Assembly: GCA_027603945.1 (NCBI GenBank)
Contig: JADIIU010000052.1
Span: 1-64,000 of the forward strand
Source: Terramyces sp. JEL0728
Lineage: Eukaryota > Chytridiomycota > Chytridiomycetes > Rhizophydiales > Terramycetaceae
Direction of reading: 5' to 3'
Length of the DNA stretch: 64,000 nucleotides
This document shows, piece after piece, positions 4,087 through 63,630 of this stretch; positions within the stretch are counted from its first letter, which is position 1; every line of letters begins with the position of its first letter. Under the pieces are notes generated by a model that was not told the origin of the DNA, did no database searches, and was given only the letters and a program-made list of their open reading frames with translations. The translations under genes and the position numbers were made by a program.

Positions 4087-4906
4087 ATGTATCATGGATT
4101 GGCGCGTGTTGGGGGTGGACATTTCAGACAAAGGCAAACCCCAATAAATTGCGCAAGACGCACAATCTTCTTCATGTCATTGCAGCCAACTCAAAGAACG
4201 ACTTCATCTCAAGTGTACGAACCAGCCCATTCACTCTCAGAAAGTTTTTCGCGAAGATTAATTACACAAGGAACGATGCCAGCAACTCTTGGAATTTCAC
4301 ATTCATTAACCAGCAGTGCAGAAATGGGCTGGGATTTCCAAAGCCCACAGCACTACTTTGTATCTAGAGCGAGAGGTGCACAGCGACATGACGAAATACC
4401 ACGATTAAACCAAACTCAATCCAGACCGCAGTTCAGAAGTAAAGTAGTATGTGTATTAGACTGTAAACATTGTCAATTAGAAGTTTGTAAACGCGGAATG
4501 AAAGCGATCCTGCTGGCTGATATGAATGCAAGTTTATTTTTAATTTCAGGTAGAATTATTCTCCACAGACTCTCCGCCTTATGGCGTGCAATTGGTAAAC
4601 GACGATTACAGGACCCGCAACTGCTTCTGCAGGATCAGAGATGTAGCCTGTTTGGGATGGTAAACCGTTTTTTATCCAGTGGGAACGTAATTGGATACCA
4701 CGTAACACAACCGTGTGAGCCTTGTATGGATGCCTGCAACAACGGCCATTTTTGGATGTTCCACTGCACAGAAGTTACTTCAAAAGACAGACTGAACGAC
4801 GCTGGTAATTTTCACTCATGTAGGCACCGTATTGGCGTGGTCGCAGATACCTAGGGCTGATAGCGATACATTGAGCACATTGAAAAAGAATTCCATCCTC
4901 CGCTAG
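4087..4906 (+). CDS. FAM72 family protein
   Basis: Exons 4087-4531, 4554-4669, 4690-4804 and 4824-4906 join to 252 codons; introns are 22, 20 and 19 nt. The second half matches the FAM72 family: CKHCQLEVCKRGMKAILLAD, then LFSTDSPPYGV, VACLGCGNVIGYHV, a CEPCMDACNNGHFWMFH block and an AWSQIP ending. Conserved Cys pairs suggest zinc binding. Family knowledge: human FAM72A binds the uracil glycosylase UNG2 and lowers its level; the fungal role is unknown. The roughly 120 residues before the domain are Ser/Gln-rich and their start codon is uncertain. The frame runs through the conserved segments only when the three ultrashort introns are removed. Confidence 0.8.
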
Positions 4907-4947
4907 ATCAAAAAGAAAAAATTCAGACGCTAAATAAATTATTACTA

Positions 4948-7900
4948 CTATTTATTACGCTGCAAACCGAAAATGTCTTCTACATACTCTGGCCATTGAA
5001 CGGTGTTGTTAGACACACCTTCCCTAGTCTTCCAATATTCGTCAGAGAATCTCCAATGGCCTTCATTGGTGTCCTTGTCAATTTCTCTGATAAACCATCT
5101 AGGCGACCACCAAGACTCACCAGTTTCAATTCCACGCGGGGAAGGACCATTAGGAACTCCAGTTTTTTCAAAAGTAGCGACGATTTCCTTCCTTCTGGCT
5201 CTTTGATGCTGTTCACAAAACTCTTTTTTTGCATCTGCATCGTCCCACAATCCAAGCTCCATTGCCCTTTGGTCTGGCCTCTTTCTAGAATCGGTAGCTG
5301 GCAAAATTTCTTGCAGTTCGTCACTGGTTTGATTAAGGTATAAGGAAAAGTCTGTAAAGTTAAAGTTAACTTTGGATGCATCCGGTTTCTTGTTAACTTT
5401 CCACAAACAAAATGGTTTTGCAGGATACGCCTTTCCGACTGGGTATGCGGTAATTCGCTCATCCCACTTGCCTTTGATTTCATACCTGCAAACTCCTTTT
5501 GCATCTTTGACCGTGCCAACGATCGTTTCTGTGCTCAAGTTATTGTTTGAGCCAAACCAACCGCCAGAATCTTTCAGTTTGAAGGTAATAACACACTCTT
5601 CGCCAGTTCTCCAATTTTTGACAGTCATGTCACCATAATGCTCGATCGTTAGAGTCCCCAGAATCAAATTATTAACACAAGTAGTAACTTTTTTCCAGCT
5701 ATAATGTTCTGACTGACACTCTCCTTTATCATTGTATACTGGAAGCGAAACATGGCAATTTCCTAGAGGATGCAACTCTAGGGATTTCCCCCAAAACTTT
5801 GACTTTACATTTACTTCGGTCCAGAATGAATAATCTGGCGATTCGCAATAGCAGGCGCTGATAGGTGGGTGGTGGCACACTTGTTCAGAAAGGTATCTAA
5901 ATTCTTTTTCCGGCTGGATCAATTCAAAAGTTTCGCCCTAACGTTAGCAAATCGTATACCAAAAGGGGGTTGAATGGTTTACTGGTTCTTCCCACAGTAC
6001 TAGAGTAATTGCTCATGGCGAAAGCACCAACAAGCATTAGTCTGAATAAACTGGCTTCGTCTCCTTGCAAGTTTACTAAGCTGTCATAATCCAATTCCAA
6101 CTTGCTTGCTGCTAAGTGTCCAGGATGAACTTGCAATTTGGATTGAGGTGCAAATCCTTTACTACCAACTCTTCCTGCAAGTGATAGCAACTCGATGAAT
6201 TCAATATCTTCGCACATTCTTTGTAGCATGCTGAGAGGCTCATTAAATAGCACTGGCAGTGTAATTTTACTTAGATCTTTTCCGATAGCCGATTTTAAAA
6301 ACGACCACACCGCCAATGAAGGCATTGGGACTGACGGGTCTAGTGGTAATTGTTTTCTGCGGGGAATTAGCGTCTCGTACCCCTTAGAGCTTGATTCCAG
6401 ATCTGCTATTGGCAAAAATCCATTACTTAATAGCGAGAATATCTTTTGATTTTCCGGTAGTTTCGAGACGTCAGTACCATCTGCCTGCATATCAGGGAAT
6501 CCAAAAGCATTTTCAAAGAAGCTTTGCGACATGTCTTGCGCATCGTAGAATTCATCATCCATCGAATCACGAGAATGTTCAGATTCGTCGGCTGGTTTCA
6601 ATTCTACTGGAGATGTGCCATCTGTTGCTGAAGATACTTTGCGGCTAGCGGAATTGCTTGGTACCGACAAACTTGGATTCTCGGTAAAGGAGTTTGGACT
6701 CAGACCAAGACCTGGCCGTTGCCCTGGCATAGACTCTACAGTCGCCAGTCTATGCACAATTTCCTCCAATCTTTTGTGTGCTTCATTTGCCGATTTGAGT
6801 TTCTGTTCCCACATGTATTCTCTGCTATGGCAATGATGAATAATATTATTAATCAAGCCTTCAATGTGTTTAGAGGATTCTGATAGTAGTTTGGGTAATG
6901 GTTTCATAGTGCTGGCGGACTTTGAATCTTGCGCGCTGAATACCGTTTGATTAAGTATTCCAACAGCTGTTTGGACAGTTTCCTGCTGCACTTGCATTTC
7001 TGTCTTTACCAATATAATCAATCTGCGGAGCTCGGGAGACACTATTTCAGGAGATGCGTCTCCCAAATAGTTTGGAGCATCATGTTCCTCCAATTTCATT
7101 GGATAAGAAGACGGTGATCCCCCGATGTGGGATGAGCGACCTTCAACACCGTCTGACTCTGTACTAATCAGCAGTCCAATCTGAGGACTGCTGTTGTTGG
7201 GCAGATCAACGCTTGACGCTTTTGGAGAAGTTGTACCAGAATGCGGGTGTTTGTTTGCGTCAGACATCCAAACTCTACTTTCCATCAGAGACCACACCCA
7301 TTTCTTTGCGTCTGCCGGACTCCGAGCTTTCAAAGAGTACTTTACATTTCCTGAACCTGTAACGTCAAATCTACTTGGATCATTTTTCGAGTCAGGAAAG
7401 TATGCATTCACTGATAATGTAGAAATCGACCCCCTGCAAGCAGAAGGGTAGTCGTGTACATCATGAAAGTAGGAAAATACACCACCTTCCAATACGAAAT
7501 ATCTTGACTGATATCCATCCTTGTAATTTGTCCACTGACATAAAATTGCGTTTACCTTTAATAAATTTCCTTTTAGCACCGGCGCTTCTTTGATTCCAAC
7601 TTTTCCTGCTGCAGCTTGTGCCAAACTTGCAGATGTGATTGGAGCTTGTGACTTGGAATGCTTTAAAATATCACGAACTTTATCGGACTTTGCCAAATCG
7701 TGAGGTTTCTTTCCTTTCTTATCCATAACATTGGGGTCAGCACCAAATTTTAGTGCCCAAACAACCATTTCCAAATTATCTGATTTAGCTGCAACATGCA
7801 GCAATGACCTTTCGGTTGACGGTTCAATAGAAGCATTAATATCAATCCAGCCGAGTTTCAAATACGCTTTTGCTCTTTCACTTGTTGCAAACAATGCCTC

Positions 7901-8445
7901 AATGCCTTGGTGGTCATTGCATGCTGCAGCGTTATGTATCGCACTCGTCATTGCTTCGATATATTCTGTTCGGTATTCTGGATTAGTGGAATATTACTTG
8001 CAAACGTGACTGCTACTTTTCCGTTTGCAGCAATTTCTTCTGCTGTCCTTCCTAATGCCTGCCGAATCGTGTCGTTCAAGTTGGGTATTTGGAATAATAT
8101 TTCAATAATATCAATCCTGCCTAATTTCGACGCAATGTGTAGCGGTGTCTCTCGGTCTGGGGAGTTTTGTACATTAATCCAGTCCAAGGATTTCCCGTTT
8201 ATTGCTGCAGCACTTTCTGATGAACAAAATACTGAGACGACATTTTCTACAATATTTTTAGGACATAGAGACACTACCAAATGCAAGGGGCTTCCATAGG
8301 TTGGAGTCGCTCCTTGAAAAGGATGTGCGTTTATTCGAAATATTGCGTTCAATACTGCGTCTGTGTCATTTGTCGTCAGAGAATTTACTAGCTGCAAATG
8401 TTTTACATTCTCGTCTAAATTTTGTGTGTGTTGCGCTTTTTCCAT
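4948..8445 (-). CDS. Oxysterol-binding protein, ankyrin-PH-ORD (Osh1-like)
   Basis: Exons, in transcript order, are 8445-7998, 7977-5960 and 5937-4948 (minus strand), giving 1151 residues; introns are 20 nt (7978-7997) and 22 nt (5938-5959). Ankyrin-type repeats fill the N-terminus (DRETPLHIASKLGRIDI, ERSLLHVAAKSDNLEM). A PH domain follows (KVNAILCQWTNYKDGYQSRY), then a FFAT-like motif DDEFYDAQD for binding ER VAP proteins, and a C-terminal lipid-binding domain with PFNPLLGETFEL and the signature EQVCHHPPISA. The order equals yeast Osh1/Swh1. Family knowledge: these proteins carry sterols and PI4P between the ER and other membranes at contact sites. Confidence 0.92.
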
Positions 8446-10593: not shown

Positions 10594-13069
10594 ATGGCAC
10601 GGTTGCTTGTAGTTTCGAATCGCCTACCAGTCACGGTAACTAATAAAGACGGAAAATGGAGCTATGCAATGTCCTCCGGAGGGCTTGTAACAGCATTATC
10701 AGGATTGAAAAAGGAAACCTCATTCACCTGGATTGGATGGCCGGGTTTGGAAGTTTCCAAGGAAGATTCCGAGATAATCAAGAACGATTTGATTTCCAAA
10801 TACTCTTGCGTCCCAGTGTTTATCAAAGATGAACTAGCCGATAAACATTACAATGGATTTTCCAATTCTATTTTATGGCCGCTATTTCACTACCATCCAG
10901 TACATATAATTAACATTAGGGAGAGATTCACTTTGATGAGGAACATTGGGATGCATATCAGCAGGTAAATACTGCATTTGCGGACGCTTTGGTGCAAGTG
11001 ATTGAAAACGGCGATTTAATTTGGGTGCAGTAAGAGGACATTTTAAATTGAGGGACTACCATTTCATGTTACTACCACAGCTACTACGAGAAAAATTGGA
11101 AGGATCTGGCAAGGACGTCAAAATCGGATTCTTTTTGCATACCCCGTTCCCTTCCAGTGAAGTGTACAGGTATGGATTGTAATTGACTGTAGAATATTAC
11201 CGGTAAGGAAAGAAGTGCTGTTGGGTGTACTATCTTCCGATTTAATTGGATTCCACACCTACGATTACGCACGCCATTTCCTCAGTTCTTGCACTAGAAT
11301 TCTCGGTCTACATACTATGCCTAACGGAGTTGAATTTGAAGGCCGTCAGGTTCACGTTGGGACTTTCCCGATTGGTATCGATCCTGATAAATTCATAAAT
11401 GGGCTGGAGCTTCCAAATGTCAAGGACCGCATTGCACGTTTGAAAAGCAAATTTAAAGGGGTAAAAGTGTTGGTTGGTGTGGACCGATTGGACTATATCA
11501 AAGGTGTTCCTCAAAAATTACACGCGTTTGACTTGTTTCTTAATCATCACCCAGAATGGAATGAAAAAGTCGTACTGATTCAAATCGCTGTTCCTTCAAG
11601 ACAGGATGTTGAAGAATACCAACACTTGCAGCAGGTTGTGAATGAATTGGTGGGAAATATCAATGGAAAATATGGTAATTATTCTTAACCAAGGAACCAT
11701 TGAATTCACCCCTATTCACTACATTCACAAGTCAATCAACTTTGAAGAGTTGGTTTCACTATATGCGATTGCAGATTCCTGTATCATTACCTCCACCAGA
11801 GATGGGATGAATCTGGTAACTCGGCTTCTAACCACAGGTATCGTACGAGTATATTGCGTCCCAAAAAGATAGCCACGGCGTACTAATTTTGTCTGAATTT
11901 GCTGGTGCTGCCCAATCTTTGAATGGTAGCAATCTTTTAAGTTAGGCGCGCTAATTGTCAATCCATGGAACACTGAAGAGTTGGCAAATGCTATCCATAG
12001 TGCCGTAACCATGAACAACAGTGCTAGACAAGCAAATCACCAAAAGCTGTTTAGATATATTTCAAAGTACACTGCTGGATTCTGGGGTAATTCTTTTGTC
12101 GCCGAAATTCAAAGAATTACCGAAGAAAATGTAGCGAAAAAGACTCCGAAACTTCGTGCGCAAATGGTTCTATCTAAGTTTAAACTGTCAAAGAAGCGTA
12201 AGGTATTCTTCCTCGATTATGACGGCACACTTACTTCTCTGCACAAGCTGCCTGAATTTGCAAAGCCTACCCCGGCACTTTTGGCTTTGCTAAAGAGATT
12301 AGTTGCTTTGCCCAACGTATTGGTTTATATTTTGTCTGGAAGATCCCGAGAACACTTGGATAGATGGTTTGGGCATTTAGACATTGGGTTGTCCTCAGAG
12401 CACGGCTGCTTTTTCAGACATCCATCCAAGTGGAAGCGACACAGCGAAGAACTGGCTGTAAACGACAACCTTGACTTGAAGCCGACCTCTTCCAGCTCTA
12501 GCTCGTCTCAAGATTTGCTAGTTCAAAAAAGAGCATCAACTGATGGATGGTTCGCACTTGTAGATCAAGTTGATTCATCTTGGAGACCAACCATCCAGCC
12601 ACTATTCCAACATTACACTGAAAGAACCCCTGGATCCTTTATCGAAGAAAAAGAAATTAATTTGACCTGGCATTATCGCAATGCAGATCCAGAATTTGGC
12701 ATTTGGCAAGCGACTGAATTGCAAGCCAATCTTGAAAAGATCCTCAACCATTTAGCCGTGTCTATTATTTTAGGAAACAAGACCTTGGAGCTCCGTCCGT
12801 CTAGTATTGATAAGGCGACTGTCGGTAAAGCTATTTTGGAAGACATCAATTCCGAAGACGAATGCGATTTCTTGCTCTGCATTGGAGATGGTAAGACTGA
12901 CGAAGTGTTATTCTCATCGCTAGCCGAAACCTCTTGGCAATATACCGTAACAGTTGGCAAGAAGACTACTGAAGCCCACTATTATCTTGATATGGTAAAG
13001 GAAGTCGAAGCGTTACTCATGAATATTGTCGTGGATAACGAGTTGGCCCAACAATCCCCTTCTGTTTAA
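10594..13069 (+). CDS. Bifunctional trehalose-6-phosphate synthase/phosphatase
   Basis: Seven exons (10594-10899, 10920-11029, 11053-11169, 11193-11674, 11694-11815, 11838-11925, 11946-13069) join to 782 residues. Introns are 20, 23, 23, 19, 22 and 20 nt. The N-terminal glycosyltransferase part has RLLVVSNRLPV, SSGGLVTAL, WVQDYHFMLLP, GVDRLDYIKG and STRDGMNLV, so the UDP-glucose and glucose-6-phosphate sites look intact. The C-terminal part is a HAD phosphatase with the DYDGTL nucleophile motif and GDGKTDE. The protein would make trehalose-6-phosphate and dephosphorylate it to trehalose, a storage and stress sugar. One substitution to note is Gln where many relatives have His before DYH. The stop overlaps AATAAA (13068-13073). 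Confidence 0.93.
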
Positions 13070-13318: not shown

Positions 13319-13966
<648 letters not shown>

Positions 13967-14117: not shown

Positions 14118-14722
14118 ATGCTCTCTTTACTCTTTGCTTCCGCATACGCACAATCGCTGGTTTATGGTCCTTGCGACCCTGCAAAGTATCCTTACTCGGG
14201 CAAGCAAATCTCGGTTGCAATCAAACCAACTCTCACTCAAACCCCAATTGTTATTAGCGGAAACATTGCGGTGTTAGATGGCTGCACCGTAACTGATTGC
14301 TAATCTAGTTTGCTGTTGAAAACTTTATCTTTTACAACGCGGGCGAAAGTTACTGGATTGGCGGTATTGACAACCAAACAGTCGGCGCAATGCTATCTGA
14401 CCAATTTGTTTATCCAGCTGCCAACCCATCAACCTACAACTTTACTATGACTAAAAAAGCTGGTGCCGCGACCAACTTTTACATGTTCAATCAGTTCAGA
14501 TTGTTTGAGATCAACTCACAGACCATCATCGCCACTGCTAACCTCCCGTATCCTGTTGGAGCTTCCAGCACTACCGCTTCTGGTTCTACTGCTACTTCAG
14601 CTGGTGCCTCATCTGGCTCCTCCAGCACGGCAGCTTCTGCCAAGAGCGATGCAAACTCAAGAGGAACAGCAAGTGTGGTAGCATTGGCCCTTGCTTTTGG
14701 ATTCATCCAACTCCTTGTCTGA
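14118..14722 (+). CDS. Secreted, probably GPI-anchored surface protein A
   Basis: Exons 14118-14288 and 14309-14722 give 194 residues with one 20-nt intron. The protein starts with a short signal peptide (MLSLLFASAYAQ), has a compact domain with two Cys (GPCDPAKYPY and LDGCTF), a NFYMFNQFRLFEI motif, then a Ser/Thr/Ala-rich stalk and a hydrophobic C-terminus (VVALALAFGFIQLLV) as in GPI-anchor signals. It is a tandem paralog of 15082-15655, with the intron at the same codon boundary. I do not recognise the family. A cell-wall or zoospore surface role is plausible but unproven. AATAAA overlaps the TGA stop. Confidence 0.78.
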
Positions 14723-15081: not shown

Positions 15082-15655
15082 ATGATCGTTGCCTCCATTC
15101 TGACTGCATTCGTTGCCGCCGCCAACACCACGTATGTCTACCAGTTGTGCGATTCAAACAACTACCCATACAAAGGTGTGAATGTCAGTGTACCACTTGT
15201 CCAAACCGGCGATTCTCCAAATGTTTCTGGAAACTTTGTCATCCTCGACGGCTGCACTGTAAGTTTCACCATAACCTTAGTTTGCCGTTACCAACTTTAC
15301 ATACTTTGGTGCATCCACATCTTACTTTGTCGGTGCAATGAAGGACGCAACTGACGGTGTTAAAATGTCCACCCAAACAATTACACAAAGCGCATTCCCA
15401 ACCAACGCTACTTTTACATTAGTCAAAGCCGCTGGTGTCCAAGTCAACTTTAAGATGTTTAATCAAGTCAGAATCTTTGACGTCGAAGCAAAGAACGTTG
15501 TCGCAACTGCTGATTTACCAGCTTTGCCATCCTCAAATACTGGATCATCTAATGGAGTACAAGGATCCGGACCTAATACTACCACCACGTCCAACAACGA
15601 TTTAAAGTCGGTTTTCGCTCCTGCTCTACTTTTCCTCTCAGTCTTGTTCCTCTAA
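15082..15655 (+). CDS. Secreted, probably GPI-anchored surface protein B
   Basis: Exons 15082-15258 and 15281-15655 give 183 residues, with a 22-nt intron after LDGCT at the same place as in paralog A. Features are a signal peptide (MIVASILTAFVAAANT), QLCDSNNYPYKG, the shared NFKMFNQVRIFDVE motif, N-glycosylation sequons, a Ser/Asn/Thr-rich stalk and a hydrophobic tail (FAPALLFLSVLFL). The conserved cores and divergent stalks suggest an old tandem duplication. The function is unknown. Confidence 0.78.
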
Positions 15656-15747: not shown

Positions 15748-17772
15748 TTAAAAAGTAACATTGCCACCAATGCTAGCAACCCACCTCAAGAAAGATTCCA
15801 GTTCGCCATTAATTAATTTCAATTCATCCGCATTCTTTCTGACAGAACACAGGAATGTATTCGGATCCACTTTGCAGCGTGCGCTAAATAGAATAGTTTT
15901 AATTTTCTCCATTTTCTCTTTTTCTGGCCCTGTTGTTGAATTTAATTGAATGGCTACTTTGTGGAACTTTTCCATTCTAGAGTGAAGGTCGATTTGGCGA
16001 TTCTTTAACCAGCTTACATACAGCTCCAGTTCCTTTTTGTCCATTTTGATCCAATCCTGAGTGGCTATTGTTAAATCTGGCTTACCGTATGGAGCGCGTG
16101 CAGTTGATGGTCCAGTTCTCTTTTTCTTGGAGTATCTCCCACCGATAGCAGATGGCGATAATTGATTCGGAGATACATTTGGAGATGGAATGTTTGATTT
16201 AACAACAGACGATGGTTTATAGACCTTTGTCTTTGCTCTTGCAATATCATCAGAAGAAGGAGGACTGATTTCTTTCTTTTTGATCCTTGCATCTTCTGCT
16301 TTTCTGGAAATGTCTGAATGTCCTTCCGATTTGGATTTTTTCAAGATTTCGGATTCCCTCGGTTTTTTGGCTATATGATCGTCTTCTGCGGAAGTTTTTC
16401 TCTTGTACGATTTCACCGAGTCGTCCTTCTTTTTGGTATCTTCTGCTTTTCCCTTTTCCTCTCGTTTTAGCTTTTCAGGTTCTGCACTCTCTTTCTTTTC
16501 TGGACTTGGCTTTTTTTCTTTTTTCAACTCCTTTTTAACTTCAGCCAGTGTTACTTTCTTGGCTGCTGGCAAGTCAGAGTTTAGTTTTTCCAAAGATCTC
16601 GCTAATGGACTATTTACACTATCAGTAGCAATAGGTGAAATTTTCTTTCCCACTGGGGACGGCACAAGGGATGCACTCTTTCGGATTTCTTTATCCAGTT
16701 TTTCTGAATTTTTCACTAAAACATCTTCGCTGGACCTTGTTCGTTTTAATGAAGGCGACGACCCAGGCTGAAGCAAATGAATCTGCTCGTGCTTAGGAAT
16801 ATACATTGCAGCATTTCTAATTGCGATGCTCCTTTCTTTGTCAGTGTAGCCTTGATACTCCCAAGGACGCAATTCCTTGTAGCAATCCGTTTTTAATTGG
16901 AAGCTGCGTTTGTCTGATGCCTGGGGTTTCCCAATCTAATATAAGACACAGAATACATCATTCAGAACATTCAAAATTTCACTCTCGCTACTTTTCATTT
17001 TCTCAACGCAATCAGATATTAATCTTGGCTTTGCTGCCAAGTAATGAAGCAGTTCTTTTCTTAATGCAGGATCAGGTGTGGTTTGTTTGGCAGATGGTAT
17101 TTTAGTTACAGGGGATGCTTTTGGAGTATTATTTGCGGGGGAATTTAAATTTGATGTAATTGCAGGTGATTGTACAGTAGGAGTGGGTTTCTTTTCCAAT
17201 GGCTTTGGTATATTATCCTTTGGGATGATTTTTTTCACTTCGGTTCGTTCTGTTTCAACAGGGATTTTTGGAAGTGGATTACTTCTGTTGATTCTCACAG
17301 AAGTCTTTTTTTGAACTGGCTTTGAAACTCCTTTCTTTGTTACTGGAACATCGTCTAGTAAAACGACCCTGATATCAATTTCCAGCCTACCTCTTTTCCT
17401 GCTTTTCTTTGTCTTGCTCTATTCTCATTTGCTTCTGCTTGACTTTGGTATTTCCGATCGACGGCTTTACTGCATATTTGCTTGATATTGTTCCAACGAG
17501 CGAAAGCGTCTTCTCTTCCTCGTTGAGTAAATAACACTCGTTGCGGTCTTTTTCGCTGAGGACTGTGATCCCAAATGTATCGTTTCCCACTTGCAGCGAC
17601 TACGTTAAGGATATATTACTGTCGACTGCAGTCCACCAACAGTGATAGACATTTCAGGAGCTTTTCCCGACTCTATCAGCTGCAAAATTTCCTTGTTGAT
17701 TCTAATTGGAATTGCTATTGGCGGGTCTGGTGTTGGCTGTGTATAGTAAATCGAATTCTCGTTTAATTTCAT
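15748..17772 (-). CDS. ELL-like RNA polymerase II elongation factor
   Basis: Exons 17772-17620, 17599-17391, 17368-16957 and 16935-15748 (minus strand) make 653 residues; introns are 20, 22 and 21 nt. Conserved ELL features are the N-terminal DTFGITVL region, the helical LRKELLHYLAAKPRLISDCVEK winged-helix-like part, and FQLKTDCYKELRPWEYQGYTDKER. A long Lys/Ser/Pro-rich linker follows. The last 110 residues (LDLHSRMEKFH-like helices) resemble the occludin/ELL domain. Family knowledge: ELL stimulates Pol II elongation within super and little elongation complexes and is absent from many yeasts. The family call rests on the N-terminal blocks; the C-terminal match is weaker. Confidence 0.65.
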
Positions 17773-18344: not shown

Positions 18345-18422
18345 CATGGATGATGAAATGAAGGACGCCCACTCATGCGGGAAGTGCAATTTAGATGGTC
18401 CTCGGACTGTTTACTTTGGTTG
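18345..18422 (+). CDS. Possible short Cys-pair peptide gene
   Basis: An ATG opens a 25-residue frame, MDDEMKDAHSCGKCNLDGPR and five more residues, with a CGKC pair. About 100 bases upstream lies a TATATAAA-type sequence. Skipping a 17-base GT...AAG stretch just before the stop would extend the frame to a second pair, CFQC, giving a zinc-ribbon-like protein of 37 residues. That intron would be shorter than any secure one in the window, so both the gene and its extension are weakly supported. Confidence 0.2.
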
Positions 18423-24919: not shown

Positions 24920-25516
24920 ATGAGTTTTCTTTTCAAAAGAATGCTGAAAAATCCACTCGTATGGATTGATCTGGAAATGACAGGATTGGATCTGAAAAAA
25001 GACCGGATTATAGAACTAGCATGCATTATTACTGATGGCGAACTATCGCAGGTGATTAAAGGGCCGGAAATCATCATCAACCAACCTGAATCCCTCATGA
25101 ACTCTATGGACGAGTGGTGTACAGAGCATCATGGAAAAGTACATGGTTTTAACATAGTCTGGGTTAACCAAAGCCGTTTTGGAGTCTAAAACTAGCACGC
25201 GGGAAGCCGAGGATCGACTATTGGCATTCATCAAAGAGCACATACCAAAGGCTAAAGAGGGAGTGTTAGGTGCATATTATTAATTCAAGCTGGAAATAGC
25301 ATCCACGTGGACAGACAATTTTTGTATCAAGAAATGCCTCGAGTGACTGATTATTTGCATTATAGGATAGTAGATGTCAGCACCGTTAAAGAACTGTCTA
25401 AACGTTGGTATCCGGACTTGCCACCTTTAAAGAAAGCGTTGTCCCATCGCGCACTGGAGGATATTCTCGAATCTATAAAAGAATTGGAATATTACCGCAA
25501 AACAGTCTTTAAATAA
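24920..25516 (+). CDS. Oligoribonuclease (REX2/REXO2 family)
   Basis: Exons 24920-25138, 25158-25269 and 25290-25516 give 185 residues; introns are 19 and 20 nt. The DEDDh exonuclease motifs are intact: [10 protein letters not shown] (Asp, Glu), [11 protein letters not shown] (Asp) and HRALEDI (His, Asp). Family knowledge: oligoribonuclease degrades very short RNAs, mainly dinucleotides, in mitochondria and cytosol. The N-terminus [11 protein letters not shown] could be a short mitochondrial presequence. The TAA stop is inside AATAAA (25512-25517), and only 32 bases separate its end from the stop of the convergent CFAP57. Confidence 0.94.
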
Positions 25517-50400: not shown

Positions 50401-53400
50401 TTCACGAAAATGTGAGCAGGACAATTGAAATTGCAAATACTAGTGCAAAGTCACTAACATACATTGCCCAAATTACCGGTGCTCAAGAATACACTGTAAG
50501 AGAGTCGACATTGACTCTCCCTTCAAAGTCCTCGGTGCAATTCACAGTTGACTTTGTCAGTAGATTTTCACACAAAGTCGACGGGATTTTAACAATCAAG
50601 ACTAAAAAGATGGGTTTAAATCATTCTTCCGTTATGGTGTTCAACTTGGCGTGTTCGGTTGAATCAATCAATCCAACAGAGGTTTTGAAAGTTGGCGCTG
50701 CATTATATGGATGTCCAGCAGCTCAGATTAAATTTGAGGTGAAGAATCGGTTCAACATTGATGGAAAATTTAATATCCAAATCAGACAGAAAAAGGTAAT
50801 AGGTTATAATTTAGAAATTAAACAAGGATTCAAATGAATATTCAATAAGACACGACTCGCATAATCCTCCGGCGTACTGCACGAATATTGAAACGATTAG
50901 CATTAGAGCATTAGAAACAGCGACAATGGAAGTCAGCTACTTGCCTTTTGATGTGACCGTTTACTAAAAATAGGAAGGAGTACACGAATGCACTATTCTT
51001 TTTAACGATCCGGAGGTTGGCGAGTTTCTGTACAAAATAGAAGGACAGTCATATACTCCGTGTCCTGTAGAAATTTGCAATTGGAGTTGCAAATCAAACA
51101 CATCGTTTGAAAAGCTGTTAAGAATAATCCCGACCAACTCAATTCGAGACAAGGCTTTGAATGCTTATATGGCAGCAAACTATGCATTTAGAAACTTGCT
51201 GAACAAGAGCCGATCAGTAAAAGACAGAATCAAATCAAATGGAGGGGTTGACCGGGATGCTTACCAGCTTCCCAAGACACCGCTAAGATATAAAATTGAA
51301 TATTCGTCACCCTATTTCAAGGGGCCATCGGAAATTGCCATCAAACCTTCCCCAGATGCAAAGGAGAAAACATCAATTGAGCAAGTCTTTACTGAATTGC
51401 CGATAACATTCCTTCCAAAGGTATAGTTAGATATAACGTAGGCGCCGGGGAAATACGTATGCAAAATTATATTGAGCTGCCTAGAGTTTTCTGATGTTCG
51501 CGTTTACGTGGTGAATGGAATGGCTAGATCTGAAGGCTCAACTGCAGAATTAGAATTCAATACAAAAGCCAAGCAACATTTAGTGCAAGATATCCCTATA
51601 GTCAACATGTCAAATGAAGATTGGTCTATTAAGGCATCGCTGCAGGGTACATTCTTCACGTGCCCATTTTCAATCAATGCAAAAGCTGGGGTTATTACAA
51701 ATTTCCCAATCGCATTCCAGCCTTCTAAGCAATGCGAAGTTTTGGGACAGCTACTACTTACCAATATGCACACTACCCAGAAATATTCGTACGTGTTGAA
51801 AGGAATCGCATCCGACCCAGATCCAGAAGACACATTAGAGTTCAAATGTGAAGCAAGAGTTCCCGTAAACCTAATTAACTTTAGTTTGAACATCCATTGA
51901 ATTTGAGTAATTCCACAGAAGAAGAGCTCCTGTATGAAGTAGTTACCGACCTACCTCTTTCAAATGCCAAGAAAACCGTGAAAATCCCTCCAGGAAAGTC
52001 TTTAAAGTATCAGCTCAAAGCACTGCCTCTAGTGTCTGGGAAATTTACCAAATTTATAAAATTCTTGAACAAAGCAGACGAATCTTATTTATGGTATGCT
52101 GTTAATATATCTGTGGCCGCTCCACCACCAGAATGCAATATCAAACTGGGCACAGAAGTAAGAAAATCCGCAACTATCGACATTAAATTGGTCAATCCTC
52201 TCGCGAATCTCCCCATTGCTTACGATGTGTACTATTCTGGGTCTTCATTGCGCGGCCCTATTGTAGTCACTATCCCGCCAAAACAAGAGTATATTTACAA
52301 ACTAGAATATTCACCAAGTAAATTCAATTAACAGCAGTGATCCCTGCCTCCGAAACCGGAAGCATTAAATTCTTTAATCCAGTATATGGCGAGTTCTGGT
52401 ATTTGCTGGAATTGAGTGCTGGGGAGGCACCACCTATACAGCTATCCCCAGTAAGCTGTCCATTAGGGAAACATTGCGTAATTTTGTACTAACTTCCAGA
52501 GCACTGTAGTCAATTTGGAGAACCCACTAAATGAAGAATTACAAATAACCATCTCCAATTCTCACCCCCAAAATTTCCAATTATTTGTTCCGCCGCTAGA
52601 TTCTTATGGCCCGATCACTAGAAAACCAGAAAACAATCTCAAGTTCTTGTTGGAAGCAAAAGAATCTTGTAAACTTCAAATTATATTCTGGCCGAGCTCA
52701 ATTGAACAGAATGTGGAAGGGAAGTTTGAAATTTTCAACTCCAAGCTTGGAAAAATTGTATATTTATTAACCGTAAGTTTGAATAACAAGTAGGGATCCG
52801 GGTTGCATCCTCCAGTGATGGATAATATTGAAATCGACTGTTCAATGGGCGAGGCAAGAAATGCCGTTGTAAATTTTGAAAATCCACTCTTGAATCCTAT
52901 TTCAATCTCCATCAAGATAGATGAAGAAAACAGCACCGATTTTACCCTGGTAACCAACTCAAAAACCAAATTTTTGCAGGGTTTGGAGGCTTTGCCAATT
53001 CAAGTTATATACAAGCCAACGCAAATGGTTCGACAGTCGGCTACCATTAGAGTTGAATCTGCAGATAACCTGGTTTGGACCTATCCAATTGTAGGCACGC
53101 CAATTGTGAATTTACTTTCGGTCCCCTTAATAATACGATGCAGAGCGAGAGAGGTGCAAGAAATAACCACTGAAGTTCAATTATCCGGAATGGGCGAGGA
53201 TTTTCCAAAAGAAGAGATCAACAAATCGCTACCAGTTCCATTTGAAAACGTGGTAACATATAAAGTGCTAGGCGATCCAGAAACCAAAAAAATATTCAAA
53301 GTCCGTATCTTGGAATCGTATGTTACTGAAAGAGGATCGCTGAACTTGAAGATTTCGGTAATTAGATCTAATCCCAGAATGAGTTTGTAGCTTACAAACC

Positions 53401-53828
53401 TGCAGATTTACAACTAGAAGTGGTTTTTACGCATTTGGAGCACGGCGGTAAATGGAAGTACCCTGTAAGGCTCTCTGCAAGTCCACAGGCTGTAGATGAT
53501 ACTATTATTATTCAAGGCGTGGCCGGAAAGACAAATACGATTGCATTTGCACTAAAGAATCCATACAAAATGCAACTAAAGTATACAGCTTCGTTTTATA
53601 GAAGCGCTAGCAGTGAAATATCCATTGGATCTAGTGAGGGTATACTAGTTCCAGAGAGTGAACAACAAGAAGGCGATAATCTGATTATGTTGTCGTACAA
53701 ACCAACAATGCAAGGAAAATCTTGTGTAGCTCTTTTATTGATAGAAGTAATTGTTTTTAATGTAGACTGAAGAGTTTTCATTGTTTTATGAAATTAGAGG
53801 AGTAACTCCACTTTCTAAAAAGAAATAA
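44436..53828 (+). CDS. CFAP47: Cilia- and flagella-associated protein 47
   Basis: Fourteen exons (44436-46320, 46341-48266, 48287-49449, 49471-49767, 49788-50795, 50815-50952, 50974-51420, 51442-51864, 51885-52317, 52338-52477, 52500-52772, 52794-53357, 53378-53746, 53766-53828) give 3042 residues. All thirteen introns are 19-22 nt. The protein is a chain of ASH/MSP-like immunoglobulin folds (repeated patterns such as VxPTKGVLQIGKAQTLTVSFSP and KIRNTGFR) with a calponin-homology-like region around residues 1800-1900. This layout and length fit CFAP47. Family knowledge: CFAP47 is a central-apparatus protein of motile axonemes. The last 19-nt intron adds the TEEFSLFYEIRGV end; the stop overlaps AATAAA (53824-53829). 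Confidence 0.92.
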
Positions 53829-53854: not shown

Positions 53855-55779
<1,925 letters not shown>

Positions 55780-57311: not shown

Positions 57312-57791
57312 ATGTTTAGGACAATAATAAAGAGAAGCATGTCGACTCTAGACACTGGTACCTGACTATCTAATCCAGAATTGAAACAGAAACTAAAAGA
57401 TGAATTAAAAACCCAAATGAAATTGAAAAACAAGCAGCAAGTAACAGTAATAAAATCGGTCCTCGCTGATATCTTGAACAACGAGAAATCCGGACAGAAA
57501 CCAATTCCAATTGCCCAATTAATCCAAAGGGGAATCAAAAAGAGACAGGATTCAATGTCGATTTATGAACAGAATGACCGATTGGATTTAAAACAAGTTG
57601 AAGAGGAAGAAACAAAGATTCTACAAGGATTTTTACCGCAACAAATGTCTAGGGAAGAGATTAAAGTTTATTTGAAGGAAAAAGTAAAGGGAGAGAAAGA
57701 TTTTGGTAAAGTTATGAAGAGTGTGGATTTGGATGTTTCTGTTGCTCCTAGAAAGTTGGTCTCTGAAATCCTTAAAGAATTATTGAAATAA
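57312..57791 (+). CDS. YqeY-domain protein (Aim41-like)
   Basis: Exons 57312-57357 and 57379-57791 give 152 residues with a 21-nt intron. The body is a YqeY-like domain: ELKQKLKDELKTQMKLKNKQ, VTVIKSVLADI, RGIKKRQDSMSIYEQ, EEEETKILQGFLPQQMS and the end GKVMKSVDLD. It resembles the tail domain of GatB and yeast Aim41. The N-terminus MFRTIIKRSMSTLD is a probable mitochondrial presequence. The precise function is unknown; a link to mitochondrial tRNA amidation is suggested by the family. The stop overlaps AATAAA (57787-57792). Confidence 0.87.
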
Positions 57792-57910: not shown

Positions 57911-58757
57911 ATGCAAATCAAAGTGTTACAATTCAATAGCATAGCACAGCAACCACCAGTCCAAAAACAACAAAAATTGGACTCATGGTTACTAATCGGC
58001 AATCTAAAATCACCTCAATTCCATCAGTGCCTCGATTTACTTTACTCTGGAAAAGAAAAGAATTTGCTGGATTTCAAAGTAGAAAAACTCAACCCGTTTG
58101 ATTTTATTGTTTGGAAGCAAAAGAATGTTATTCAGGGTAGTTGTCAAGTAATACTGCAATTGAATGGAAAGAATCTTGATTTTGACAGGTTTTGTGGTTT
58201 CTGCAAGTCGAATTACGCGATTAATTTGAAAGAAGGAAACTATGAAAATAGAGGTAAGCATTACTAACGAGGTATTCAAGCAATGAATGAATCTATCAAA
58301 GACAAAAGGATTGTCGAATTGGAAATTAGTATCGATAAATTGCAAGCAGGCACGCTTCGTGTACAAGTACTATCGATTAATATAGCTGTATGATGATGTG
58401 GTGCCTGTCTCTGTCAACCATTTCTTGCAGCAAACCTATGCGAAAACCAAATGCACGCAAATTGTGAAAAACGGGTGGATTCAATTCGGGGGAAAACCAA
58501 CCACAACTTTTCCCGATGAGAATTTCATCAAGAAACATACAAAGAGAGGAATAGTATCCCTCGTCAATAGCGGACCAAATAGCAACAGCTACAACTTTAT
58601 GATCTTGCTGAAACCAATGCCTTATTTTGACAAGAAATTTGTTGTTATTGGGGAATTGGTAGATGGAGATAAAACTCTGGATTTGATTGAGCAAGTCTCG
58701 ACTAATTTTGAGAAGCCTGATTTTGATATAACTATTGAGCAGTTTAAATTAACCTGA
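57911..58757 (+). CDS. PPIL6-like divergent cyclophilin
   Basis: Exons 57911-58253, 58272-58366 and 58386-58757 give 269 residues; the second intron is 19 nt. The first is 18 nt, or 27 nt if the next AG is used, with the same frame. The C-terminal half is cyclophilin-like: LYDDVVPVSVNHFL, IVKNGWIQFGG, KRGIVSLVNSGPNSNS and FVVIGELVDGDKTLDLIEQV. The N-terminal domain (QIKVLQF...) and the NGWIQ phrase match PPIL6. Several catalytic cyclophilin residues are replaced, so prolyl isomerase activity is doubtful. PPIL6 is associated with motile cilia in animals. Confidence 0.75.
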
Positions 58758-58808: not shown

Positions 58809-59479
58809 TTATTGTTTTTTCTTGGAGACTCTATTCTTATCTTTGATATAATTAAGGCTCGTTCTATGTTGCTCCTGCGGCTGGATATCTTGCATTGGAT
58901 TCATAGCTTCAGGTTTTTCATTCTTTATCGCGCTTGCCAGCATATTGCTGGTCTGCAAAGGATTAAGCAAATGGTTGGTGCTAAAGAGAAAATTTCCCCA
59001 CCCGTTATTCAGAGTAGATGGGTTCATTCTAGCCAGTGATGTGTACATTGTGGATATAGACTTTTTCTGCGTTTGTTTAGTTACTCTAACATTTGGTATT
59101 GCTGATCCTCGCTCTGCCTTTTCACTCTTTACTCTCCAACGTACATAGCATGCATTGCAATAAGACTAATATTAGCAGTGGTTACTCTGGTTCCGTCTGG
59201 TCCTTTACGCTTTAAAGGCGTATCCTTTTCCAGTGTCCCGCACTTTACACATTTCCAGGTATAATTCAAATCCAAATGGTCCATCAAATTGTCATTTGCG
59301 TTGATTGGTGTCTTGCTTGAGACTGGTGTTATATTAGAGCCACTGCTCGGAGTATTGATATGGAATTTCGCCATTTCTATTTGTTCGTTGCCACTATATG
59401 TCTGCGGTGTTAGAATCTGACTATTTTTTACTGCAATCTCTGTCTTTATTGGAGATATTTTCTGTTCCTTCTTGTACAT
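58809..59479 (-). CDS. GATA-type zinc-finger protein
   Basis: Exons 59479-59186 and 59165-58809 give 216 residues with a 20-nt intron inside the finger. After splicing, the finger reads CVKCGTLEKDTPLKRKGPDG then TRSYCNACYVRWRVK: a C-x2-C-x18-C-x2-C GATA finger with the basic tail. Flanks are Ser/Thr/Asn-rich. It is a likely DNA-binding transcription regulator; the target is unknown. Its start is only 40 bases from the divergent RING ligase start. Confidence 0.85.
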
Positions 59480-59519: not shown

Positions 59520-60850
59520 ATGGGCTCTAATATCTCGTTATTTCAACGCACTCAGCAATTCAATGATAACAGCTTGACATCCAGATCTACTTATTACGGA
59601 CCTCATTTCGTAATGGATGATGAAAATATTAGCACCACGTCCAGCAGAGCATTCGTGGAAGACATACTAAACGTTCTGTCGTTGGGAATACTGGGAAATT
59701 TGCATGAGGTTGCGGCACTAGGGAATCTGTATAATGAATTACCTCCTCCCCCATTAAGAAAAGCTAAAACTCTTCAGTCAAAAATCAATTTATCCAAAAG
59801 CTCCATCCAAGTTCTTCATAGAAACAAGAGTACGGAAATTCAATTCAAATACGATTCACTAGTGCCCTGCTATATATCCATTTATTACAATGCCAGAGTC
59901 ACGTACGAATCGAATACTGATGCGAGTTTGAAATTCAAGTAACGCTGCATTAATATAGTATGCTGACTGAAAACGAAAAGCCTGCTGCTTGTACCAGATA
60001 TGGTCCATTTCCTGGAGGTTTAAACCAAATATTTACCACAACCGAAGATTTCCAACATGTATTTCATAGCCATGAAACAGTTGCTAATGTGCCAGTCAAC
60101 ATCCAACCTCAAACAGTTGCCCCTGTCACACCCGGTAGTGCGAACGAAACAAATCCGTTATTGAACCGCCCTGATAACAACATCCCACCGCCAATTTCGA
60201 TAACTTTGCCTACCACTGCCCAGCCAGAGATTGTATCCCCATCAAGCATAAACCCAAGTGCATTGTACGATATAATAATCGTATTAGAGGAACAGGACCC
60301 GTCAGTATCCCATGGTAAGTCAAATTCACTCTAGATTTCCAAAACCCATACATGAATGCACAAGCGACAAGTCTGATGCTAAAACGCAGCGACATTTATG
60401 AAATAGTCTATTCCAAGCAGTCTCTGCTTGTTGATGGTATCCCATACACGCTTCAGGAAGTGTACGGGTTTAGCGAATCTGAAACTGATAATAGGAACGA
60501 TCAGGGTAAGTCTGGTTAACGCAGTTAGCATGAAGGAATGTGTTGTCTGTATGTCTGATGCTAAGGATACGCTGGTTCTACCCTGTCGGCATTTGTGCCT
60601 TTGTACTGCTTGTGCAGAGGTACTCCGGAATTCTCAGAATGCGTCAACTAGCCCTCAAACACCCACATCCAGAGGGCCACCAAAGTGTCCCATTTGCAGA
60701 CAAGGTATTTACTTTTAACAAGTTTTCCACTCTCTTGTGCAAATCAAGTTGCCGCCTCCGTATGATATCAAAAGCACTCGGTCGTCAAGAGCCAATATTG
60801 CTGAAACTAGAGGATTTGGATCGGCCTTGTATAGATCTCAGGATGTATAG
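59520..60850 (+). CDS. MGRN1/RNF157-type RING E3 ubiquitin ligase
   Basis: Exons 59520-59938, 59959-60314, 60335-60505, 60525-60704 and 60723-60850 give 417 residues; introns are 20, 20, 19 and 18 nt. The protein begins MGSNIS, a myristoylation-type start shared with MGRN1. It has the DUF-like domain of that family ([30 protein letters not shown]) and a RING finger [20 protein letters not shown] ... [15 protein letters not shown]. Family knowledge: these ligases ubiquitinate membrane-trafficking and receptor substrates. The 18-nt intron (60705-60722) separates CRQ from VFHSLVQIK and is the shortest secure intron here. Confidence 0.93.
60705..60722 (+). other. 18-nt spliceosomal intron
   Basis: GTATTTACTTTTAACAAG. 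Removal joins the RING finger end CPICRQ to VFHSLVQIK, which aligns with LPFRALLQIR of MGRN1. No other GT-AG choice keeps the frame. Confidence 0.85.
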
Positions 60851-61007: not shown

Positions 61008-62317
61008 ATGCTTCTATCAACTACACTAGGTTCGGATATCCTCTCTGAAGACAAAACCAGCTTCACTATACCTACAACAGGCTCGTTCTATCGCCTTCCA
61101 TCATACCTGTTTTCAAGCGCAAAGAAACTTGTGGGACTAAAAACAAACCCAAATCTAAACCAGCCCATCTTTCTCAACAGCTTGAATACACCGATAGCCA
61201 GACCTGAAGGTAGGCTTTGTTTAATTGTAGGATACAATAAGCTGTCGCACAAATTTGCTACATCTGCATTGAGAAATACATGCAACGTTTCTGGGAGTTT
61301 GTTTACCAGCTCACTGACTGTTGCTAGTGGGTTTGCTAACTGCGCTGCAATTGCTGCTGTGCCAATCATCAACCATACTCCTTATTTGGCAACGATAACT
61401 CGGACCAATAGCGGAAAGATAAGGGACGTGTCGGACTTACGTGATACAATTATAAGCACAACCGGAAAGCTGCTCAATGCTTTGCCATTCTCTGGAAAAT
61501 TCGTCAATGGCCAGACCAGTTATAATCCACACGAAAAGAAAGCCGCTGAAGACTCTTATTTGAATGGCTTCCATGTATACTCTAGCGGAGCATTGTCTGA
61601 AGATATTTCCTTTTCTTTCTCTGGATGTGGTTGGCTTATTTTTTACGAATTGGGTGTTGCTCAATGTCTTAAAGATACAATCAAGCCAGAAGTTCTCCGA
61701 AAAGCCAAATTCTTGGGCTCTTCTACTGGATCAATAATCGCACTAAGCTTGGCTCTTGATTTGGATCTAGAACTAATTAGAGAAAGTTTGATGGAGCTCG
61801 TACAAGAATCATCGGGCAACTTGCTCTCTCCGTTTGTTGCTATTTCCAATATTATAAGACCGCTACTGGAAAAAGTAGTGCGCTCCAGCATTGACCTGTG
61901 CCAAGAAAGATTGTTTGTCTCGCTGACAGAGCTGCCATCTGGCAAGAATGTTCTTGTTTCTGAATTTTCATCAAGAACAGTAATACTAGTTAACAATAGG
62001 ATTTGATCAACAATATCATAATATCGTGCTCGCTGCCAGTATTCAGCAACAACATTTCCCTTAAAGATCAACTTTACATTAGTGGTGATCTGTCTGGCAG
62101 AATACCAATATTGGATGAAATGACAATCACCGCAAGCCCATACCATGATTCGGCAAATATCTCTCCTTCAAATCAAAATTATACCAAGACTGATGAATGC
62201 TGTCCGCGTTCAAACATGCAGATTTACAATTCCATGTTTGAGGGCGGCTGGAAAGATACCTACGGATGGCTAACAGAAAAGAAATCCTCTGGGGTTTTGA
62301 CTGGATTAATCTTTTGA
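61008..62317 (+). CDS. Patatin-like phospholipase/lipase homolog (PNPLA family)
   Basis: Exons 61008-61979 and 62000-62317 give 429 residues with a 20-nt intron. The core starts near residue 200: ISFSFSGCGWLIFYELGVAQCL (oxyanion loop), LGSSTGSIIAL (nucleophile Ser in GSSTG), LFVSLTELPSGKNVLVSEFSS and MTITASPYHDSANISP. The fold matches ATGL-like lipases. The second catalytic residue is doubtful: the usual DG(G/A) reads ISGDLS. The N-terminal 190 residues are not conserved. It is a paralog of the degenerate gene at 39-40 kb and may be inactive or use a shifted Asp. Confidence 0.82.
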
Positions 62318-62528
62318 ATAGTTGTTTTTAATGTTTTTGAATAAAAGTTGTATTTTTGTGCCATTGATAATACAGCATGAATAGTGTGCCTCCTACAAGC
62401 CATCGGCCTGTGACTATCATTATGGCCGACATTTTAATGGGTTTGCGCTTTGCAATCACTTTTGTATTGGCTGCTGCTAAAGTGGCCGAATCACGTATAA
62501 TGGCCGAAGTCACAGGGAAAAGTTACCA

Positions 62529-63630
62529 ATGAATTCGGAACTGGTCTTGAAAAAGGATTTCGTTGATCAAGTAAGGATCGAAAACAAAGCGCTTGTACCA
62601 CTACCTGCCGATCACGTACTGATCCGAATTGAAATTTTTGGACTAACAGCAAACAACATTACTTATATCGCACTAGGGAAATCATTGCAGTACTTTGATT
62701 TCTTCCCCGCTGGTTCTGCAGATGAAGCTAAAGCGCCAGTATGGGGAATTGGTACACTTCATTAATCTAGGTGTCATTGAACAGTCAAACAATCCTCTGT
62801 TGAAAAAAGGAGAGCGCATCTACGGCTACTATCCAATTGCAAAGTATATTAGCTTCAAACCAGTCTCAATCAAAAACAACTTTTTCTACGTAATTAGAGA
62901 TCAGCTCCCAAGAGATCGAGCAGTTTATAACCAATATTTCAGGAGAAATGGCGACCCAGAGTACATTAAAAACAATGAAGAATTGATGCTGTTGTTTAGA
63001 CCTTTGTGGACTACATCGTTCTTTCTCCATGACTTCCTTGTTGCTAATGCATTCTTTGGTGCCAAGAAAGTACTAATTTCAAGCGCATCATCCAAGACTG
63101 GGTATTCATTTGCATTGCTGTTGAAGGAAAACAATTTCCAAGTTATTGGATTGACGTCGAAATCAAACGTTGATTTTGTAACAAGCTTAAACTTTTATGA
63201 CAGGGTAGTCCGCTATGACGATATTCCTGAAATCTCTACCGACGAGCCAGTAGTCTATTGCGATTTTGCAGGAAGCGATTCGTTGAACAACACAATTCAC
63301 AACCATTTTGGATCCAAACTCCAAAAACAAGTCATTGCTGGCATGTCCCACGTCTCAGAGGCAAATTCAACATATGGCGATGACAAATCAGTCACATTCT
63401 TTGCTCCCGAATGGATCAAAGTACGCAAACCTAAAGTTGGGGATAATATCGTTGAACGAAGGGAAAAAGCATGGAATTACTTTATTGAAACGATTGTGCC
63501 TCATGTAAATCTAAAACATGTTCATGGCTCAAAGGATGTTGTGAGAGTCTATCACAAAATGCTCAAGGGAAAGTCCACCCCAGACGAAGGGTACATATTG
63601 TCAATGTTTGACAGTTCCGCAAAGTTGTAA
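62529..63630 (+). CDS. DUF2855-family, MDR-like protein
   Basis: Exons 62529-62751 and 62771-63630 give 360 residues with a 19-nt intron. Typical DUF2855 features are HVLIRIEIFGLTANNITYIALG, VWGIGVIEQSNNPLLKKGERIYGYYPI and a Rossmann-like half with VLISSASSKTGYSFALLL and VVYCDFAGSDSL. The protein resembles the medium-chain dehydrogenase/reductase fold without zinc ligands. Enzyme activity is unknown. AATAAA follows the stop by about 5 bases. Confidence 0.85.

Follow-up and report, generated by a model that had tools for sequence, protein, structure and literature searches.

How can a splicing machinery work on RNA pieces of only about 20 nt? The question is raised by a stretch of 64,000 nt (bases 1-64000 of contig C52, in the following the window) from Terramyces sp. 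JEL0728, which NCBI places in the Chytridiomycota, Rhizophydiales, Terramycetaceae. An earlier note, made from the letters of the window, had described about 87 introns with a mode of 20 nt (two of 18 nt, 17 of 19, 35 of 20, 16 of 21, nine of 22, two of 23 and six longer) in about 30 genes of a suspected flagellated fungus, and the host is indeed a chytrid. Our analysis confirms at the sequence level that nuclear genes of Terramyces sp. JEL0728 are interrupted by predicted introns of 18-23 nt, with a mode of about 20 nt. The mode of 20 nt was recovered in the window, while the count now stands at 80 introns, spread over 26 of the 40 gene models. Lengths of 18-23 nt account for 78 of them (one of 18 nt, 14 of 19, 32 of 20, 20 of 21, nine of 22 and two of 23); in this list one impossible 14-nt call was swapped for a homolog-supported 20-nt intron (IFT52 intron 5). 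Where six longer introns had been reported, homology supports only one of 51 nt in Cdc42, and the remaining longer call, a 44-nt candidate, is of low confidence.

Intron lengths in the window and across the assembly

The assembly comprises 15.0 Mb in 231 contigs. We analysed a 264-kb sample, which combines the window with 10-kb pieces of 20 further contigs, one piece per contig (21 contigs sampled). The spacing of GTA, branch motif and AG was counted on both strands and compared with Markov controls. In the window, spacings of 19, 20 and 21 nt occur 31, 40 and 28 times, against 14.7, 13.1 and 16.0 in the controls. The 264-kb sample yields 18 at 18 nt (controls 20.0), 60 at 19 nt (14.3), 71 at 20 nt (15.0), 36 at 21 nt (16.7), 27 at 22 nt (17.7) and 29 at 23 nt (17.0), and the pooled spacings of 40-130 nt number 1734 against 1679. 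A few other single spacings, 14 and 34 nt, are mildly above the controls in the window and the 264-kb sample alike.

Genes were then modelled with a hexamer-based gene finder. In a flat run, the intron-length prior was flat from 12 to 150 nt and the coding model was refined on GT-AG predictions, which favours GT-AG and no particular length. This run called 107 GT-AG introns of 18-23 nt in the 264 kb, whereas eight control dinucleotide pairs gave 13, 23, 14, 21, 17, 12, 14 and 18. The same run shows no excess at 15-17 nt, the size of heterotrich and mikrocytid introns (eight GT-AG calls against 4-10 for the controls), and none above 23 nt, where the GT-AG bins lie below the control pairs (38 against 58-90 at 30-59 nt, 64 against 95-123 at 60-150 nt).

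An informed annotation, in which motif and length are learned and long introns are penalised, called 298 introns in the 264 kb. Of these, 292 lie within 16-25 nt: two of 18 nt, 79 of 19, 118 of 20, 64 of 21, 25 of 22, three of 23 and one of 24. For the window annotation, long introns were penalised less strongly. For loci outside the training set we used 15 of 21 (54.6 kb), omitting six that overlap and keeping two that are near-identical. They gave 65 calls, of which 64 measure 19-22 nt (22 of 19 nt, 26 of 20, 11 of 21, five of 22) and one 28 nt; in the flat run the same loci yield 24 introns in the 18-23 nt range, where four control pairs average 3.0. The tiny-intron pattern is found beyond the window and is not local. 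Extrapolated naively from 298 in 264 kb to the 15.0 Mb of the assembly, the count would be ~17,000 introns, a figure that is inflated if some contigs are haplotypes of one another.

Junctions in IFT52, Cdc42, CFAP57 and Prp8

Introns were also placed by protein-guided spliced alignment, a training-free procedure that accepts any length from 10 to 200 nt; it was applied to four genes in seven runs, with three control pairs. The 21 GT-AG introns obtained comprise two of 19 nt, seven of 20, seven of 21, four of 22 and one of 51 nt. In every run GT-AG outscored the three control pairs, which also yield short cuts, though these are scattered in length and score lower. A junction is called gap-free in the following when homologs align to the spliced product without a gap within 10 residues on either side.

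The IFT52 gene (40371..41823, minus strand; gene model and homolog alignments) encodes 437 aa and has seven introns of 19-20 nt, whose junctions were checked in 18 homologs chosen from 120 listed. Introns 2 (41547..41566) and 3 (41397..41416), both of 20 nt, were placed with both guides, and their junctions are gap-free in 18 of 18 homologs. The same holds in 17 of 18 for introns 6 (40895..40914) and 7 (40710..40729), likewise of 20 nt and placed with both guides, and for intron 1 (41655..41674, 20 nt), placed with the Globomyces guide. Intron 4 (41218..41236, 19 nt; both guides) lies in a less conserved stretch and is gap-free in only 9 of 18. Intron 5 (40956..40975, 20 nt) starts with GT, carries a CTAAC branch and ends in TG, and its junction is gap-free in 16 of 17 homologs. 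Under GT-AG alone both guides forced a 14-nt cut at this place, which was excluded from the 21. With this correction and one intron ending in TG, the IFT52 length of 437 aa given in the earlier note was reproduced, as was that of Cdc42, 190 aa.

In Cdc42 (plus strand), the human protein as guide places the 51-nt intron 1 (13460..13510), the sole homology-supported longer intron, and intron 2 (13673..13693, 21 nt); the gene model contains both as well. The CFAP57 gene (25549..29144, minus strand; 1135 aa) has nine introns. Seven were placed with two guides: three of 22 nt (28763..28784, 27133..27154, 25915..25936), three of 21 nt (27782..27802, 26836..26856, 25685..25705) and one of 20 nt (26318..26337). 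The other two, 28988-29007 (20 nt) and 29100-29118 (19 nt), lie outside the protein-guided coverage and come from the gene model. Prp8 lies outside the training sequence (locus L040). Its six junctions are gap-free in 19, 20, 18, 20, 20 and 19 of 20 homologs, chosen from 120 listed so as to cover fungi, animals, plants and Acanthamoeba. The spliced product aligns to human Prp8 over its residues 6-2311. The introns thus break conserved coding regions at precise codon positions, as U2-type introns do. A Pfam scan of ten further window proteins found families above the curated cut-off in nine, several of them extending across junctions, and none in one.

These alignments bear on the possibility that the introns are real and their narrow range of 18-23 nt is made by the caller, introns of 50-150 nt being equally common and missed. 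The informed model does penalise long introns, missing the 51-nt Cdc42 intron until that penalty was eased, and the iterated coding model was trained on called genes. Under the flat prior, however, the long bins fall below the control pairs while 18-23 nt lies far above them, and 20 of the 21 protein-guided introns measure 19-22 nt although 10-200 nt were allowed. We consider a caller artefact of this kind very unlikely.

Anatomy of the introns

In the flat run, in which no motif was used, YTRAY occurs in 85 of the 113 introns that measure 17-24 nt, and in 81 of these 85 its A lies 4-7 nt before the intron end; the branch sequence had earlier been put 3-8 bases from the end, which agrees. A GTA donor, described before as nearly universal, is present in 267 of the 292 informed-set introns, often as GTAAT. 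Their acceptors are TAG in 189, CAG in 69 (258 together), AAG in 29 and GAG in five. GT-AG ends are fixed by construction in this set and the unforced test is the flat run, which recovers GT-AG termini; the one homology-supported exception is the GT-TG intron of IFT52. The putative branch A, assigned to whichever site fits best between 4 and 8 nt from the intron end, is at position 14 from the 5' end in 136 introns, 15 in 124, 16 in 28, 17 in three and 18 in one (n = 292). A second AG occurs within the tail in 15 of 292.

The branch is not followed by a pyrimidine tract, for which the earlier note saw no room, but a T-rich stretch does exist before it: in the 118 introns of 20 nt the T fraction at positions 5-12 is 0.30-0.81. 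Any pyrimidine signal therefore lies upstream of the branch. The narrow length distribution under about 25 nt and the near-fixed branch position are those of ultrashort-intron genomes.

The GTA donor, the YTRAY with its A at position 14-16, the 4-7-nt tail ending in (T/C)AG and the conserved protein sequence on either side lead us to assign these segments to the U2 type. We put at about 0.9 the probability that they are real spliceosomal introns of this type which, across the whole genome, have been reduced nearly to the smallest size the spliceosome tolerates.

Natural variation and public records

Contigs C199 and C111 (loci L042 and L043) share 10 kb at 98.5% identity and are perhaps two haplotypes within the assembly. 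With introns predicted on one copy only, there are no indels in 5,769 coding sites, two in 185 intron sites and, elsewhere, seven in 4,028 sites, with two of the seven at the ends of the shared stretch. Both intron indels are of 1 nt (21 to 20 nt) and fall between donor and branch. Indels in these segments fit the expectation for sequence that would be excised, although the numbers are small. The 58 coding substitutions include 43 at third codon positions (1,923 such sites), and there are 44 substitutions in the 4,028 other sites.

Public protein records show how such segments have been handled. The deposited Terramyces sp. JEL0728 IFT52 (P0001, 415 aa) is 100% identical over 100% of its length to a model that lacks one coding stretch; the next matches are Boothiomyces (91%), Globomyces (80%) and then other chytrids. 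It treats 40895-41000 of the window (minus strand) as one 106-nt intron, where homologs place two 20-nt introns, one of them ending in TG, and 66 nt of coding sequence. The 22 residues (66 nt) omitted are split around one 20-nt intron and end at another. The IFT52 record of Boothiomyces JEL0866 (339 aa) breaks off at the residue of Terramyces intron 3, and probably also skips coding sequence. In the Prp8 of Boothiomyces sp. JEL0866 (P0121), seven extra residues, RLSFTNC, stand exactly at Terramyces Prp8 intron 1 (L040:778-797, 20 nt), and the alignment has no other gap. The Terramyces intron ends in TTTTACTAACTGTAG, which with one more upstream base reads TTT ACT AAC TGT, or FTNC; most likely, then, the Boothiomyces record retains an orthologous 21-nt intron. 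Spread to relatives is judged here from protein records. Public gene models thus do contain introns of this kind, if with errors. In these few public records chytrid gene models skip coding sequence or seem to retain introns, and other proteins may carry similar errors.

The same material can be turned against splicing altogether: the segments might stay in the transcript. They could be errors of sequencing or assembly, breaks that mark pseudogenes, or inserts that keep the frame and are either translated or bypassed. Some stopless segments with a length divisible by three (3n) could be translated (10 of 65 phased 3n calls), and the Boothiomyces record does translate an apparent segment of this type. 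Yet the frames resume in conserved proteins, Pfam domains are intact across several junctions, and the segments share one GT/branch/AG anatomy, in the flat run too. The near-identical contigs, moreover, show indels in the segments and none in coding sequence. Taken together, this makes unspliced segments extremely unlikely.

Splicing machinery

A canonical U2 snRNA is present (140 bits) with its GUAGUA intact, and the branch motif near the 3' end is complementary to it, as in U2-type introns. The five spliceosomal proteins looked for, Prp8, Prp18, U2AF65, Slu7 and SF1, all have genes, and predicted tiny introns interrupt these genes as well. U2AF65 scores 252 bits, short of the 310 that NCBIfam sets as its cut-off, probably because unspliced sequence was scored; once spliced, the model shows RRM domains. 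Changes in U2AF, SF1 and Prp8 had been suggested, but all three are present and recognisable, and no gross change was seen apart from one unexplained stretch in SF1. There (L038, around 1198, minus strand) the frame goes on beyond two in-frame stops flanked by an 8-nt direct repeat, and no GT-AG cut of 18-24 nt that restores the frame was seen in this stretch. A first SF1 model without zinc knuckles was discarded, as the knuckles lie downstream in the same frame, behind the two-stop stretch; the second knuckle looks split by a 20-nt intron.

Matches to the Rfam model of U6 (27 bits) were rejected, lying inside a coding gene with four tiny introns (VMP1-like by eye), as was a single further match from the U6 searches, at a locus without an Rfam match. 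Loss of Prp18 and Slu7 through the short distance from branch to AG was considered and dropped, both genes being present.

The U2 snRNA also helps to judge whether the segments could be removed at the DNA level or by another non-spliceosomal route, in the manner of ciliate internal eliminated sequences, the shortest of which are near this size range. Several features speak for the spliceosome instead: the preference for GT-AG over eight other dinucleotide pairs, the branch motif close to the 3' end and the matching U2 snRNA. The ends, GTA and (T/C)AG, are also not inverted repeats of each other. The probability left for such a route is very small.

Points against U2-type ultrashort introns as the norm

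Several observations weigh against our reading of these segments. No YTRAY match was found in 28 of the 113 flat-run introns. With the Batrachochytrium (Bd) IFT52 as guide, intron 1 became a 35-nt cut instead of 20 nt, and the TG end of IFT52 intron 5 is the best solution once any 3' dinucleotide is permitted; it is either a real non-canonical site or a base error. Neither U6 (Rfam model, two patterns, consensus DNA) nor U1 (Rfam model) was found in the genome, in searches that had no positive control and score only some candidates in the case of the snRNA models, so that absence is not shown; an assembly gap, divergence or the limits of the search may each account for this. Pairing of the introns with U1 and U6 is consequently putative.

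Prp18 and Slu7 are kept despite the short branch-to-AG distance. In yeast both are dispensable if the branch is close to the 3' splice site, and Prp18 guards against non-YAG 3' splice sites (PMC10711555); the latter function bears on the lone GT-TG intron. The two proteins may have a different function here or be needed for the few longer introns.

Motif and length combined are specific, which favours our reading: at the score that retains 95% of the 225 non-3n introns, 204 kb of coding sequence (156 models) contains five decoys of 19, 20, 22 or 23 nt and eight of 18 or 21 nt. Synonymous shuffles give 11.0 +/- 3.0 non-3n decoys, and 4 of 60 shuffles go as low as the observed five; this weak depletion disappears at the top two thresholds. 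Decoys of 18 and 21 nt go the other way, with eight against 4.75 in the shuffles, a slight excess that possibly represents uncalled 3n introns. Exonic avoidance of decoy introns was hence set aside as weak and inconsistent. Selection for in-frame stops in 3n introns was not adopted either: stops are found in 55 of 65, against about 47 expected (summed over null fractions), and the calling probably disfavours 3n introns that lack a stop. In particular, 21-nt introns without an in-frame stop are probably under-called, the 21-nt share is likely a lower bound, and the exact mode, 20 or 21 nt, is therefore unsettled. Between C199 and C111, finally, introns have one substitution in 185 sites against 43 in 1,923 third codon positions, so that only the indels speak for relaxed constraint.

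Further genes of the window

Six introns interrupt the gene for a trehalose-6-phosphate synthase/phosphatase of 757 aa (10669..13069, plus strand; gene model and Pfam): 10900-10919 (20 nt), 11030-11052 and 11170-11192 (23 nt each), 11675-11693 (19 nt), 11816-11837 (22 nt) and 11926-11945 (20 nt). The spliced protein covers positions 29-472 of 473 of profile PF00982 and 1-232 of 235 of PF02358. A RhoGEF-BAR-SH3 protein of 698 aa (20054..22272, minus strand; gene model and Pfam) also has six, one of 22 nt (20335-20356) and five of 20 nt (20661-20680, 20825-20844, 21091-21110, 21447-21466, 21584-21603). Gene model and Pfam likewise support the following: a protein kinase of 429 aa (18629..20000, minus strand; introns 18800-18820 and 19120-19140 of 21 nt, 19220-19239 and 19547-19566 of 20 nt), an RNase_T exonuclease of 178 aa (24941..25516, plus strand; 25139-25157, 19 nt; 25270-25289, 20 nt), a zinc-binding dehydrogenase of 327 aa (31216..32237, plus strand; 31244-31262 and 31726-31744, 19 nt each), a CHD5-like protein of 184 aa (38385..38977, minus strand; 38492-38510 and 38875-38893, 19 nt each), a Yqey-like protein (plus strand; 57358..57378, 21 nt), a cyclophilin-domain protein of 269 aa (57911..58757, plus strand; 58254-58271, 18 nt; 58367-58385, 19 nt) and a patatin-domain protein of 422 aa (61008..62317, plus strand; 61210-61230, 21 nt; 61980-61999, 20 nt).

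The remaining introns come from gene models. The longest protein, of 3042 aa (44436..53828, plus strand; CFAP47-like by eye), has 13 introns of 19-22 nt, which start at 46321, 48267, 49450, 49768, 50796, 50953, 51421, 51865, 52318, 52478, 52773, 53358 and 53747. On the minus strand lie a 1144-aa protein of ankyrin-PH-oxysterol-binding type by eye (4948..8445; 5938-5959, 22 nt; 7535-7555, 21 nt; 7978-7997, 20 nt), a 646-aa protein without any Pfam family above the curated cut-off (15748..17772; 16065-16085 and 16936-16956, 21 nt; 17369-17390, 22 nt; 17600-17619, 20 nt) and a 595-aa protein whose N-terminal half is hydrophobic by eye (34918..36744; 35852-35870, 19 nt; 36601-36620, 20 nt). The same strand carries the low-confidence 44-nt candidate in a proline-rich model (43897..43940), a 21-nt candidate in a DEAD-box-like helicase model by eye (54596..54616) and a 20-nt intron in a GATA-type zinc finger by eye (59166..59185). 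Plus-strand models comprise proteins of 194 aa (14118..14722; 14289-14308, 20 nt), 183 aa (15082..15655; 15259-15280, 22 nt), 288 aa (59613..60519; 59939-59958 and 60315-60334, 20 nt each) and 360 aa (62752..62770, 19 nt), and three HMG-box-like proteins by eye: 29426..29852 (29482-29502, 21 nt; 29680-29698, 19 nt), 32610..33137 (32660-32680, 21 nt) and 33989..34819 (34135-34155 and 34328-34348, 21 nt each).

Judged by eye from the translations, four paralogous HMG-box-like genes form a cluster at 29426-37507. Positions 1-3043 encode four intronless, mutually similar proteins of ~140-170 aa, acetyltransferase-like by eye, and at 18269-18609 a U3 snoRNA adjoins an snR61-like C/D box snoRNA (Rfam).

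A possible assembly route

In the human B complex, helices of 17 nt (U6/5' splice site) and 14 nt (U2/branch) lie 15 nm apart, so that about 52 nt are estimated to be needed between 5' site and branch (PMC6692369). Terramyces introns offer 13-15 nt between donor and branch, room for no more than a pair of short adjacent helices. As this is far below ~52 nt, the known B-complex geometry probably cannot hold both sites. U6 would pair with the first 6-7 nt of the intron, and U2 with the 6-7 nt that lead up to the branch, so that the two helices would nearly abut. The 3' splice site would be the first usable AG beyond the branch, with no pyrimidine tract behind it, and the length distribution would be the sum of two near-fixed spacings. 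One option is that shorter helices are combined with a compact B complex; alternatively, the sites might be engaged sequentially, with direct passage to the activated state. Terramyces, and probably Boothiomyces, may have converted the whole nuclear intron set to 18-23 nt with an ordinary-looking spliceosome. The canonical B-complex geometry would then be unnecessary, and assembly would follow a compact or stepwise path that still awaits description. This proposal is tentative, and we give it slightly less than an even chance.

Comparison with known ultrashort-intron systems

Ordinary fungal introns are about 50-100 nt long, two to five times longer than those of Terramyces, with which they share the splice-site and branch motifs and the order of parts. 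To our knowledge, the present case has no fungal precedent. The genus Terramyces is free-living, and a culturable fungus would give biochemistry and genetics access to spliceosomes in which U2 and U6 must sit nearly next to each other. We found no report of ultrashort introns in a chytrid or other fungus in the open-access literature searched, though a mention outside it is possible; near-limit introns are known there from ciliates, a nucleomorph and rhizarian parasites, and fungi are not among these in the literature searched. The sequence data strongly support a new occurrence, in fungi, and a distinct size variant of this known extreme.

The likening to Stentor and the Bigelowiella nucleomorph in the earlier note holds, with 15-16 nt (PMC9505925) and 18-21 bp (PMC10245619) reported, and the mikrocytids belong alongside them. 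The chlorarachniophyte nucleomorph, whose roughly 300 genes hold over 800 introns (PMC10245619), is almost equal in length range and narrowness. It is a relict endosymbiont nucleus, however, whereas in Terramyces the main fungal nucleus is concerned, with 15 Mb and, by the naive estimate, ~17,000 introns. The introns of the mikrocytids Mikrocytos and Paramikrocytos (16-17 nt, n = 224; PMC10245619) are likewise numerous, uniform, conserved and nuclear. They are 3-4 nt shorter and belong to a reduced parasite with 17-19 spliceosomal proteins identified, whereas all five looked for were found in Terramyces. Stentor shares with Terramyces a fixed branch position, a ~5-nt tail and a canonical U2 snRNA; its branch A lies at position 10-11 with a weak consensus (PMC9505925), in contrast to position 14-16 and a clear YTRAY in Terramyces.

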